Below, one piece after another: positions 34,005 to 39,200 of a stretch of DNA of 39,200 bases (positions are counted from its first letter, which is position 1; every line of letters starts with the position of its first letter). The notes under the pieces were generated by a model. It was given only the letters and a program-made list of their open reading frames with translations, was not told the DNA's origin and ran no database searches. The translations under genes and the position numbers were made by a program. Source of the stretch: a virus; IMG/VR virus record IMGVR_UViG_3300046642_000470, positions 1 through 39,200 of that record; one strand, 5' to 3'.

Positions 34005-34378
34005 AGCCCATGACGCCCGAGCAGCGCGGCGAGGCCCGGTTCTACGTGCCGCCCGGCCAGAACCCCGCCGCGCCCGAGCTGGTCGCGCACGTCGCCTGCG
34101 GCGCCCGCGCGCTGGAGATCACCACCACCGACCCGGACACGATCAAGCTCGCCCGCGACATGACCGCCGTCATCTGGCGCCTGCTCACCACCGAGCAGCA
34201 GGCCGAGGCCCTGCGGAGCGTGCTCGCCGAGGCCGTCGCCCTCGCCGCCGACCTCCCCGACGACGGACTCACCGCCGGCGACCTGCTGCGACTGCTTACC
34301 GCCCGCGGCCTCGACCTCACGCAGGACATCGCCGACGCCGAGACGCTGCGCGAGGCTCACGCCCTGGCAGGCGTGTGA
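34001..34378 (+). CDS. Hypothetical protein, 125 aa
   Basis: ATG in an ATGA overlap. Beta strands (ELVAHVACGARALEITTTDP) then helices (TEQQAEALRSVLAEAVALAA, AGDLLRLLTARGLDLTQDIA). No recognisable family. Its end overlaps the methyltransferase start. Confidence 0.65.
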   Translation: MKPMTPEQRGEARFYVPPGQNPAAPELVAHVACGARALEITTTDPDTIKLARDMTAVIWRLLTTEQQAEALRSVLAEAVALAADLPDDGLTAGDLLRLLTARGLDLTQDIADAETLREAHALAGV

Positions 34379-35157
34379 TGGGCGCCGCCGCGCTGCTCGC
34401 GCTCGCCGAGCGGCCCGCGCCGCCCGTGACCCCCGGGCAGGCCGCCATCGGCGAGCCCGTGCGGCACAGCACGCTGCCCCTGCCCGAGCGGCCGTGGAAC
34501 GGCGGCACCGTGCTCGATCTGTGCTGCTGCGCCGGCGGCGCGGGCATGGGGTACTGGCTCGCGGGCTGGAACGTCGTGGGCGTCGATATCCGCCCGCAGC
34601 CGAACTACCCGTTCCCGTTCGTCCAGGCCGACGCCATTGAGTACGTGCGGACCTTCGGCGCCGCCTACGACCTGCACCACGGCTCGTGGCCATGCCAGCA
34701 CCGGGCCGCGATCACCAAGGGCACCAACCGGCATCTACAGCACCGCTATCCGGACCTGCTTCCCGCAGGCCGTGAGGCCATGCTCAGCACTGGCCAGCCG
34801 TACGTCATCGAGACCACCGGGTGCCGTCCCGACGTGGTGTTGTGCGGCGCGTCGTTCGGGCTGCCGATCCTGCGGCACCGCCGCATCGAGGTGCGCGGCT
34901 GGTTCCCTCTCGCGCTGCCGCACGCCCCTCACCGCGGTCGAGTCCGCGGCCACCGTCACGGCAAGCGCTACGACGGCCCGTATCTCGCCGCGTACGGCGA
35001 CGGCGGCGGCAAGGCCACCGTGCCCGAGATGCAGGCCGCCATGGGCATCACGTGGACCGACGTGCGCCACGAACTCACCGAGGCCATCCCGCCCGCCTAC
35101 ACACAGTTCCTCGGCGAGCAGGCCGCCGAGCAGATTCTCACCAAGGAGTCATCATGA
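34378..35157 (+). CDS. C5-cytosine DNA methyltransferase-like protein
   Basis: 259 aa; a GTG one codon upstream is equally possible. Motif I is LDLCCCAGGAGMGYWLAG followed by VVGVDIRP. Around residue 103 SWPCQ stands where the family has PPCQ, retaining the catalytic Cys. VIETTG replaces the usual ENV segment, keeping Glu, and CGASFGLPILRHRRIEVRGW matches the conserved FGxxxxRHR region. It lacks a separate long target-recognition domain and resembles short phage-borne enzymes that protect DNA from host restriction. No cognate nuclease is adjacent. Confidence 0.8.
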   Translation: MGAAALLALAERPAPPVTPGQAAIGEPVRHSTLPLPERPWNGGTVLDLCCCAGGAGMGYWLAGWNVVGVDIRPQPNYPFPFVQADAIEYVRTFGAAYDLHHGSWPCQHRAAITKGTNRHLQHRYPDLLPAGREAMLSTGQPYVIETTGCRPDVVLCGASFGLPILRHRRIEVRGWFPLALPHAPHRGRVRGHRHGKRYDGPYLAAYGDGGGKATVPEMQAAMGITWTDVRHELTEAIPPAYTQFLGEQAAEQILTKESS

Positions 35158-35810
35158 CCATGATTGCCGCCCGCCAGTTCCGCACGATGCTCGCGCAGGT
35201 CACCCCGCACATGGGCAGCGACGACACGCTGCCCGTCCTCACCGCCATTCACCTCGAGTGCGGGCGCGGGAACCTGTTCGCCGTCGCCACCGACCAGTAC
35301 ACGATGGGCATCGCCCGCGCCACCGTCGACAGCCGCGACAACTGGACCGGCCGTATCCAGCGCGAGGACATGAAGACCGTCACCGCGTGGCTGCGCACCG
35401 CGCCCGAAACGATCGAGATCACCGGCATCCGCGACGGCGACACCGTGACCGTCACCCTCGCCCACGACGGCAGCACGCTCCGCCTGGCGGCCGGCGCGCA
35501 CGGCGAGCTGCCGAAGTGGCGCGACCTGGTCAAGGGCGCCGTGACCGCCAAGGCCGCCGCCGTCGACCTCAATGCGTTCAACACGGCGTTCCTGGCCCGC
35601 TTCAAGGCCGCCGGGACCGTGCTCCACACGTGGCAGGGCGGACCCGGCAAGCCGCTGCTGTTCACCGACGCCGAGGCGACGTTCGTCGGCATTCAGATGC
35701 CCGTACGCACGGACGAGCGCCAGGTGTCGCGCGACAGCCTCGCCGAGAAGTGGACCCGGCACCTCCCCGCCGCACCCGCCGATCCGGTCGCCGACGCCGC
35801 CGCCGCCTGA
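35154..35810 (+). CDS. Short beta-clamp (DnaN)-like protein
   Basis: 218 aa, ATG overlapping the methyltransferase TGA, AGGAG 5 nt before. FRTMLAQVTPHMGSDDTLPV with LTAIHLECGRGNLFAVATDQ is the characteristic opening of a DNA polymerase III beta domain, and later GELPKWRDLV fits a second clamp domain. Bacterial beta clamps have three such domains in about 370 residues; this has room for two. It may form a trimer or partner with the host clamp. It lies directly before the replication initiator. Confidence 0.75.
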   Translation: MTMIAARQFRTMLAQVTPHMGSDDTLPVLTAIHLECGRGNLFAVATDQYTMGIARATVDSRDNWTGRIQREDMKTVTAWLRTAPETIEITGIRDGDTVTVTLAHDGSTLRLAAGAHGELPKWRDLVKGAVTAKAAAVDLNAFNTAFLARFKAAGTVLHTWQGGPGKPLLFTDAEATFVGIQMPVRTDERQVSRDSLAEKWTRHLPAAPADPVADAAAA

Positions 35811-35888: not shown

Positions 35889-36794
35889 TTGAGCGTCACC
35901 GCCATGCAGTGGGTGTGGGACAAGGCCAACGCCCGCGGCAACGCGCGGCTCGTGCTGCTCGCCGTCGCCGACAAGGCGCCCGGCCCTGACTGCACCGCCC
36001 GCATCGGCACCACCGAGATGGTGCGGCGCGTCAACGGCGCCCGATCGTCGGTCATCGTCGCCATCGACAAGGCCATCGAGAGCGGCGAACTGACCGTCAT
36101 CGAGGCCGCCGCCGGCAGTCGCGCAGCGCTCTACCAACTGCCCATGGCCGTCGGCTACTCGCGGCTTACCGGTCCGGAAACCGGACCCCTAGGCGGTGAA
36201 CCGGACCGGTCCGGAAACCGGACCCCTAAGCCCTCTCGGTCCGGAAACCGGACCCCTAACCCGGTGCCTACCGGTCCGGAAACCGGACCCCTAGACCGGA
36301 CCCCCGAAATGGCTTTGTGGTCCGAAAACCGGACCCCTAGGGGTCCGGAAACCGGACCCCATCACTCACCCAATGAAGGAGTGAGTGAAGGAGTGGTTGA
36401 GGCGCGCGGCCCCGAACGGCGCACCGCAGTCATTCCCGAGTTCGCCCGCCCCCTGGTCGACACCCTCACCGCTTCCGGCGTCGTCGTGAAGTGGTCGCTC
36501 GGCGAAGGCGAGTGGTTCTCCCTCGACCACCTGATCCAGCGCAGCGGCGCCGACATGCTCGCCGCCGAAGCCGTCAAGGTCGCCGCCCGCACCACCGTCT
36601 CGCACGCCCGGTACTTCCTCCGCGCCTGGCGCGACCTGCCGCCCGCACCCGCCGCCGGAACCGCCCCCGTCATCCCGCAGCACGCCGGCCCCAACGTCGT
36701 GCCGTTCGACGCCACACAGCCGCGCCGCAGCCGCGCCCAACGCACAGCCGACGAACTCGCCCTCATCCTCGCCAGAGAGGCAGCCCAGCAGTGA
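35889..36794 (+). CDS. Replication initiator with internal iteron array
   Basis: 301 aa from a TTG, 8 nt after AGGAG. Residues 1-85 are a winged-helix domain of the phage replisome-organiser type (VTAMQWVWDKANARGNARLV, CTARIGTTEMVRRVNGARSS). The region encoded by 36171-36362 is low complexity (GPETGPL and SGNRTP repeats) because it contains six DNA iterons. A C-terminal domain with EGEWFSLDHLIQRSG follows. Lambda O has the same layout: DNA-binding N-terminus, iterons inside its gene, C-terminal recruitment domain. It probably binds its own gene to start replication. Confidence 0.85.
   Translation: MSVTAMQWVWDKANARGNARLVLLAVADKAPGPDCTARIGTTEMVRRVNGARSSVIVAIDKAIESGELTVIEAAAGSRAALYQLPMAVGYSRLTGPETGPLGGEPDRSGNRTPKPSRSGNRTPNPVPTGPETGPLDRTPEMALWSENRTPRGPETGPHHSPNEGVSEGVVEARGPERRTAVIPEFARPLVDTLTASGVVVKWSLGEGEWFSLDHLIQRSGADMLAAEAVKVAARTTVSHARYFLRAWRDLPPAPAAGTAPVIPQHAGPNVVPFDATQPRRSRAQRTADELALILAREAAQQ
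36171..36362. repeat. ori: Iteron array, probable origin of replication
   Basis: Six near-identical copies, each with the 17-bp palindrome GGTCCGGAAACCGGACC followed by CCTA, begin at 36171, 36208, 36238, 36273, 36319 and 36342. Copy 5 has one changed base (GGTCCGAAAA) and copy 6 ends CCAT. Half-sites CCGGACC occur at 36201 and 36296. Distances between starts are 37, 30, 35, 46 and 23 bp. A flanking 8-bp inverted repeat, TCACTCAC with GTGAGTGA, lies at 36362-36388. Confidence 0.85.
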
Positions 36795-37486
36795 ACCGCC
36801 AACAAATCGCAGCACTCATCGCCTACGCCTCGGGCCTCGACCCGCGCACCGCCAAGACCGGCGACGACCTCGCCGACCAGCTCGACCAGTGGGAAGAGCT
36901 GCTGCGCGACGTGCCGCCCACCGCACCGCACCCCACCGGCCGCCACTGGAACGCCGGCGAGGTCGTACGCCACCACATCGCCACCTCGCCCTACCCGATC
37001 AAGCCGTCAGACGTGAGCCGACCGTGGCACACGTTCAAGGCCGACGTACTCGGCCGCCACACCGGCACGTTCGAGCCCGGCGCACACCCCGAACTCGACC
37101 CCGACGACGAAGCCGGCTACCGCGCCGCACTCGCCGCCGACCGCGCCGCCGTCGCCGCCGGCACCGCCCCGCCCGTCACCGTCCGCGAACTCACCGGCGG
37201 CCCCTCCCCCGAAGTCGCCCGCCGCCTCGCCGCCCTCGGCGAGTACATGCCCCGCACCGTGGCCCGCCAGCTCGCCGAGTACCGGCCCCAGCGCGCCGAG
37301 CGGGAACGCCTCGCCATCGCCGACCTGCCCGACGCCCTCAACGTGCCCTGCCCATACGAGCAGTGCCGACGCCCCGTCAACCGCCCCTGCCAGAACCGCC
37401 GCGGCGCCGACCGCAACACGCCACACCCGAGCCGCATCGACGCAGCCACAGCCCACCACAACGCCCACCGGGAGCAGACCGCATGA
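36791..37486 (+). CDS. Zinc-motif protein coupled to the initiator, 231 aa
   Basis: GTG in a GTGA overlap with the initiator. Residues 185-215 contain CPYEQCRRPVNRPCQNRRGA and then HPSR, the C-x4-C-x7-C...HP.R pattern of small phage zinc fingers. The rest is helical. Phage P-type helicase loaders lie in this position, but no loader motif or Walker box is visible, so that role is only a possibility. Confidence 0.65.
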   Translation: MNRQQIAALIAYASGLDPRTAKTGDDLADQLDQWEELLRDVPPTAPHPTGRHWNAGEVVRHHIATSPYPIKPSDVSRPWHTFKADVLGRHTGTFEPGAHPELDPDDEAGYRAALAADRAAVAAGTAPPVTVRELTGGPSPEVARRLAALGEYMPRTVARQLAEYRPQRAERERLAIADLPDALNVPCPYEQCRRPVNRPCQNRRGADRNTPHPSRIDAATAHHNAHREQTA

Positions 37487-38727: not shown

Positions 38728-39200
38728 GTGAACGACACCACCATCACCCTGTGCGGCAACGCCGTAGACGACGCTGAGCTTCGTTTCACGCCGTCCGGCG
38801 CCGCCGTCGCCAACGTCCGTGTGGCCAGCACGCCGCGCCGCTTCAACAAGCAGACGAACGAGTGGGAGGACGGCGAGCCGCTGTTCCTCGGCGTCACCTG
38901 CTGGAAGCAGCACGCCGAGAACGTCGCCGAGACCGTGCGCCGCGGCATGCGCCTGATCGTCACCGGCCGCCTGACGCAGCGGCAGTACGAGGCCAAGGAC
39001 GGCACCAAGCGGTCGTCCTACGAGATCGCCGACGCCGAGATCGCCGTCTCGCTGCTGCACGCCACCGCCGCCATCACCAAGACCACCGGCCAGGGCCAGG
39101 GCCAGGGCGGACAGCGCGGCCAGCAGCAGCGCCCCCCGCAGCAGAACGGCGGCGGCTGGGGCACCGCGACCGGCGCGACCGGCGGCGACCCCTGGGCCAC
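38728..39200 (+). CDS. ssb: Single-strand DNA-binding protein, N-terminal part
   Basis: The GTG start, behind AAGG, gives [20 protein letters not shown], then [14 protein letters not shown] and [20 protein letters not shown], and [20 protein letters not shown], the conserved OB-fold strands of bacterial SSB. The tail is a Gly/Gln-rich linker. The frame runs off the window end at 39200 and continues at the beginning, finishing at 164. SSB protects single strands during replication and recombination and is downstream of HNH in the same unit. Confidence 0.95.
39074..39200. repeat. Terminal direct repeat, right copy
   Basis: Identical to 1-127. Removing one copy gives a circular sequence of 39,073 bp with an uninterrupted ssb gene. 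Confidence 0.97.

Follow-up and report, generated by a model that had tools for sequence, protein, structure and literature searches.

Does an array of palindromic repeats inside the replication initiator gene of a phage mark the origin at which that phage begins replication? This question is raised by IMG/VR virus record IMGVR_UViG_3300046642_000470, from which we analyzed a stretch of 39,200 nucleotides (positions 1 to 39,200, hereafter the window). Integrase (serine integrase), repressor and ERF genes are present in the window, and thus the virus is a temperate phage, of Streptomyces type. An earlier note had proposed that the origin lies inside the initiator gene, and this proposal has gained support from the repeats of homologous genes, codon shuffling, an adjacent low-GC tract and a co-varying DNA-binding helix. 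Judging from sequence and from analogy with phage lambda, we consider it very probable that positions 36171-36400 constitute a lambda-type intragenic origin that uses an initiator of a non-lambda family.

The initiator gene and its recognizable parts are the following.

35889..36794, plus strand: replication initiator gene, TTG start, 301 aa, assigned from matches to phrog_6643 and phrog_391 and from homologue annotations
35889..36158, plus strand: N-terminal winged-helix DNA-binding domain (residues 1-90), assigned from an AlphaFold2 model and structural matches
36054..36056, plus strand: codon 56 (Ile), within the recognition helix (residues 52-65), which co-varies with base 3 of the repeat half-sites
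36423..36638, plus strand: C-terminal helical domain (residues 179-250), common to initiators with an unrelated N-terminus

In profile searches, nearly the entire protein (residues 2-298) matches phrog_6643, "replication initiation protein", with an E value of 6e-49, and residues 2-130 match the first half of phrog_391, "replication initiation O-like", with an E value of 2e-6. Homologues carry the annotations "replication initiation protein" or "RepA-like replication initiator". The AlphaFold2 model has a pLDDT of about 95 across residues 1-90, places the recognition helix at residues 52-65, and ends in a confidently predicted helical C-terminal domain. The linker between them (residues 96-176), which is the portion that the array encodes, is modeled with low confidence and is probably disordered. 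Fold comparison agrees with the winged-helix assignment, and the structures matched include 4pt7 ("Structure of initiator") and 4pql, which we take to be plasmid RepA_N-type proteins, at Z scores of about 7.8 that are tied with those of unrelated winged helices.

Six 17-bp interrupted palindromes, GGTCCGGAAACCGGACC, occupy positions 36171-36358 within this gene, five of them exact and one with a single change. The array and the shorter elements near it were located as listed here.

36171..36187, plus strand: iteron 1, GGTCCGGAAACCGGACC, found by sequence search, as were iterons 2 to 6
36208..36224, plus strand: iteron 2
36238..36254, plus strand: iteron 3
36273..36289, plus strand: iteron 4
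36319..36335, plus strand: iteron 5, GGTCCGAAAACCGGACC, with one mismatch
36342..36358, plus strand: iteron 6
36200..36210, plus strand: half-site ACCGGACCGGT, abutting iteron 2, seen in the sequence
36295..36304, plus strand: half-site ACCGGACCCC, seen in the sequence
36362-36369 and 36381-36388, no strand: 8-bp inverted repeat TCACTCAC/GTGAGTGA with an 11-nt gap, not generally conserved
36361..36400, no strand: low-GC tract, a proposed DNA unwinding element, 47.5% GC against a mean of 72%

The six start positions (36171, 36208, 36238, 36273, 36319 and 36342) and their start-to-start spacings of 37, 30, 35, 46 and 23 are those reported in the earlier note, and both half-sites that it described are present. 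Its description of six 21-bp repeats, each with a 17-bp inverted repeat, also holds for all copies in outline, but the core is inexact in copy 5, and over the full 21 bp only copies 1-4 are exact, while copy 5 deviates at one position and copy 6 at two. When up to three mismatches are allowed, 11 matches are found in the whole window compared to 0.39 expected by chance, and no shuffle reached 11; no iteron copy occurs in the remainder of the 39,200-base record outside 36171-36358. The irregular spacing of the iterons in the window counts against reading the array as an origin. The 8-bp inverted repeat is present as described, but because only some close relatives have it in exact form it is ruled out as a conserved element and is probably incidental.

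Homologues of the initiator are encoded by the Streptomyces phages ToastyFinz, SoJo, Picard, SV1 and Eklok, with 45-51% identity (47-56% in another comparison). Homologue scans with a six-protein alignment yielded 53 viral loci and 19 genome loci, and we searched 66 distinct genes for near-palindromic 17-mers without reference to the protein. Four to six palindromes are present in 63 of these 66 genes, where they lie in the linker that joins the N- and C-terminal domains. The motif agrees within a gene and differs between genes, forming GGTCC, GGGCC, GGTCG, GGGTCA, GCCCC, GGTAC and other classes. The comparison of homologous initiator genes that the earlier note had recommended is therefore positive in about 65 genes, with both frame switches and concerted changes of motif.

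A second feature of the proposed origin is the low-GC tract at 36361-36400. It is among the lowest 0.13% of 40-bp windows in the record, although its GC content is low only relative to the 72% GC genome, and as the lowest-GC tract of the initiator gene it begins ∼2 bp past the last palindrome. For 65 homologous genes, we determined how far the 40-bp segment with the lowest GC content of the gene begins from the first base of the last iteron. This offset is 2-24 bp in 54 genes (offsets below 17 bp represent overlap with that iteron itself), and in 29 of these it is exactly 19 bp. The GC minimum lies elsewhere in the other 11 genes. Both the sequence of the tract and the peptide that it encodes vary by clade, being GAGTGA-rich in some and AACGCA-rich in others. 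For lambda O, which served as a positive control, the offset is 20 bp with an 18-bp iteron, compared to 19 bp with a 17-bp iteron here, and thus the tract follows the iteron at the same distance, 2 bp, in lambda and here. Cumulative GC skew, which is confounded by gene direction, has no clear inflection at 36.2 kb.

This arrangement bears on whether the palindromes might instead be operators through which the initiator represses its own transcription, with replication starting elsewhere. The winged-helix fold of the protein is close to that of transcriptional regulators, and palindromes fit dimeric regulators. Operators, however, do not readily account for an array situated ∼280-470 nt inside a coding region, for a conserved low-GC tract immediately after it, for the annotation of the family proteins as initiators, or for a layout that equals that of lambda O. 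We consider this explanation unlikely as the sole role of the repeats, even though autoregulation could coexist with origin function.

A further alternative is that selection on the protein maintains a repeated peptide linker and that the repeats in the DNA are a side effect. Such an explanation can draw on the GPxSGP-type peptides that are encoded by frame-0 copies and recur in that one frame in many homologues. In the window, the iterons fall in reading frames 0, 1, 1, 0, 1 and 0 and encode the peptides GPETGP or SGNRTP. Hence the earlier assertion that successive copies lie in different frames is right in that two frames and two peptides are used, but copies 2 and 3 share a frame. Among the homologues, 37 genes have their iterons in two frames and 22 have them in three, so the same DNA has been kept although the encoded peptides differ. 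We also generated protein-preserving codon shuffles of two kinds, 60 of each (120 per gene), for 12 genes. The observed repeat score exceeds that of all 120 shuffles in 11 of the 12, the exception being the locus L063. Frame use and the synonymous shuffles lead us to reject the peptide-repeat explanation, to which we assign very little likelihood. Nonetheless, the earlier statement that the DNA and not the protein is conserved goes too far, given the recurrence of GPxSGP-type linkers in one frame in many homologues.

We consider co-variation between protein and DNA to be the strongest evidence that the initiator reads the repeats of its own gene, as the sequences suggest. Initiator residue 56 is the most informative about the motif, specifically about base 3 of the half-site, and the two agree in 62 of 63 genes. 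Arginine at this position is found with G or A (24 genes), valine, isoleucine, leucine or threonine with T (36 genes), and glutamate with C (2 genes), with one exception. Among all scored pairings of 7 half-site positions with about 95 residues, the 56/base-3 pair ranks best, with a score of 0.93 compared to 0.68 for the next pair. On a tree from which residues 48-62 were left out, each of the six switches in residue-56 class falls together with a switch in base class. Agreement of 62/63 was never reached in 145,255 simulations in which residue and base evolved independently, a result that is not a clean test in that residue 56 was chosen after the ranking had been seen and the residue classes were defined manually; still, the margin is large and chance is thus an unlikely cause of the agreement. 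The sole exception is Eklok (locus L013, 4001-4858), which combines Arg56 with GGTCGGG/GTCCGGG half-sites and may reflect a shifted binding register. The idea that the repeats act as mRNA hairpins in attenuation or translation control, each copy being able to form a 7-bp RNA stem, is extremely improbable and is rejected. The imperfect copies among 136 distinct iteron sequences hold more A-C type mismatches (70) than G-U type (39), whereas the reverse would be tolerated in an RNA stem on this strand, and the coupling of residue 56 to base 3 suggests a protein-DNA contact.

Several phages appear to have exchanged the DNA-binding domain together with the repeats. Raleigh and Darolandstone have kept both the C-terminal domain, with 40% identity across residues 179-280, and the next gene, with 58%, but their N-terminus is unrelated (phrog_30000/2447 for Raleigh) and their in-gene repeats differ, consisting of 11-bp units resembling CGAATCGTCCG. 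In AxeJC and Eastland, the N-terminus is of the same type as in those two phages and the repeats are similar. A third type of N-terminus is found in Austintatious, whose GGGAACA-like repeats lie within its lowest-GC tract. The putative arrays in these phages are short (two or three copies). Because unrelated N-termini carry different repeats, the repeats appear to go with the DNA-binding domain.

A wider search for the initiator family in 396 Actinomycetota genomes gave matches in eight, all weak. Five of these distant actinobacterial loci (L101, L102, L104, L105 and L106) have repeats in the linker as judged by eye. By the same visual inspection, the in-gene repeats of L102, L104 and L105 (for example CCGGAAACCGGCA and CCGCAGAATCTGCGG) are followed by the lowest-GC tract of the gene. 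We regard the apparent occurrence of in-gene repeats in distant Actinomycetota as a lead.

The gene that follows the initiator is a candidate partner in replication.

36791..37486, plus strand: next gene, 231 aa, whose start overlaps the initiator stop by 4 nt (GTGA); proposed helicase loader

Its product belongs to phrog_8924, for which PHROG assigns no function. The counterparts in two records are annotated as "helicase loader" (SoJo) and "DnaC-like helicase loader" (Eastland). Searches with the window protein gave no Foldseek match in PDB better than an E value of 3, no convincing sequence match to solved structures and no profile support for a loader. We infer that this gene is a candidate helicase loader from its position, from gene order and from the annotations of relatives. 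In the Streptomyces phages named above, the order is ERF or RecT annealing protein, other genes, initiator, next gene, HNH endonuclease and SSB. The window likewise holds the start of an SSB-like gene (38728-39200, truncated where the record ends), in line with the relatives, where an HNH gene is followed by SSB. Directly upstream of the initiator, a 218-aa gene at 35154-35810 contains a sliding-clamp-like stretch (Pfam DNA_pol3_beta_2, E value of 1.6e-5, just below the cut-off; phrog_947, DNA polymerase processivity factor, E value of 2e-8), while its best PHROG is labeled RusA-like resolvase. Upstream of this gene lies a DNA methyltransferase-like gene at 34375-35157 (phrog_363, E value of 6e-29).

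The earlier note also held that the phage has no polymerase, primase or helicase. None is present among the annotations of the complete genome of the relative SoJo; for the window the statement extends only to the part of its genes that was scanned. The initiator and origin together might thus serve to recruit the host replisome. In the mechanism that we propose, the winged-helix domain, probably as a dimer, would bind each 17-bp palindrome, with residue 56 of the recognition helix reading half-site base 3, as the co-variation suggests. By analogy with lambda, several bound dimers would wrap the array and strain the adjacent tract at 36361-36400 until it melts. The C-terminal domain and the product of the next gene could then recruit the host replicative helicase and replisome, as gene order and the annotations of relatives imply. 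Binding and its stoichiometry, melting and helicase loading at the predicted origin are steps that we infer.

Origin and initiator might form a self-contained cassette in a single gene, in which one base in each of the twelve half-sites is dictated by residue 56. A lineage would switch origin specificity by changing the residue and the whole array in concert within coding sequence, or by exchanging the domain and its repeats as a unit, which would amount to a readable specificity code for replication compatibility. We lean slightly toward this view. In the literature that we searched, no paper describes such an origin in Streptomyces phages. The predicted origin can be located from sequence in dozens of Streptomyces phages and prophages, with similar in-gene repeats in distant Actinomycetota relatives, and shared origin specificity between phages would become predictable. 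The region is also a compact candidate replicon for vectors, and the family offers a natural series of protein-DNA pairs in which initiator and origin co-evolve while occupying the same bases.

The closest functional parallel is lambda ori, which lies in the middle of the initiator gene O between the DNA-binding and C-terminal domains, as does the array described here. Iterons are hyphenated palindromes in lambda, where there are four, compared to six in Stx phages (PMC7466680); each iteron in the window is likewise a hyphenated inverted repeat. The annotated iterons of lambda O fall at about codons 117-144, and those in the window at codons 95-157. A low-GC tract of 39 bp immediately 3′ of the iterons in lambda (PMC6022878) has its equivalent directly 3′ of the iterons in the window, where the tract is low relative to genome GC only (47.5%, compared to a minimum of 20% in lambda). 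Gene sizes are also similar: lambda O and P have 299 and 233 aa with an ATGA overlap, and the two genes in the window have 301 and 231 aa with a GTGA overlap. However, the iterons in the window are GC-rich 17-mers with wider and irregular spacing, and the next gene is not recognizably P-like. The window initiator has no match to the lambda O family phrog_277 at E≤1, whereas lambda O itself gives 1e-152, and the DNA-binding domain is therefore rejected as a homologue of that of lambda O. Both proteins match phrog_391, but with different halves. The predicted origin would thus work in a lambda-like manner without membership of its initiator in the lambda O family.

SV1, Picard, SoJo, ToastyFinz and Eklok share with the window the protein family (phrog_6643), the gene order and the in-gene palindromes, and differ in their motif variants (GGGCC and GGTCG classes). 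In the stretches of these records that were examined, the initiator gene is listed with no repeat or origin feature. Extrachromosomal mycobacterial prophages encode a helix-turn-helix initiator, RepA, and an origin within repA or just upstream has been suggested by comparison with lambda; no repeats were found, and these prophages are maintained as plasmids with parABS (PMC7157519). The phage in the window also has a helix-turn-helix initiator but, unlike those prophages, carries a serine integrase. As far as the sequences indicate, the origin described here would be a further case of the known lambda-type kind, with an unusually clear link between one protein residue and one base.
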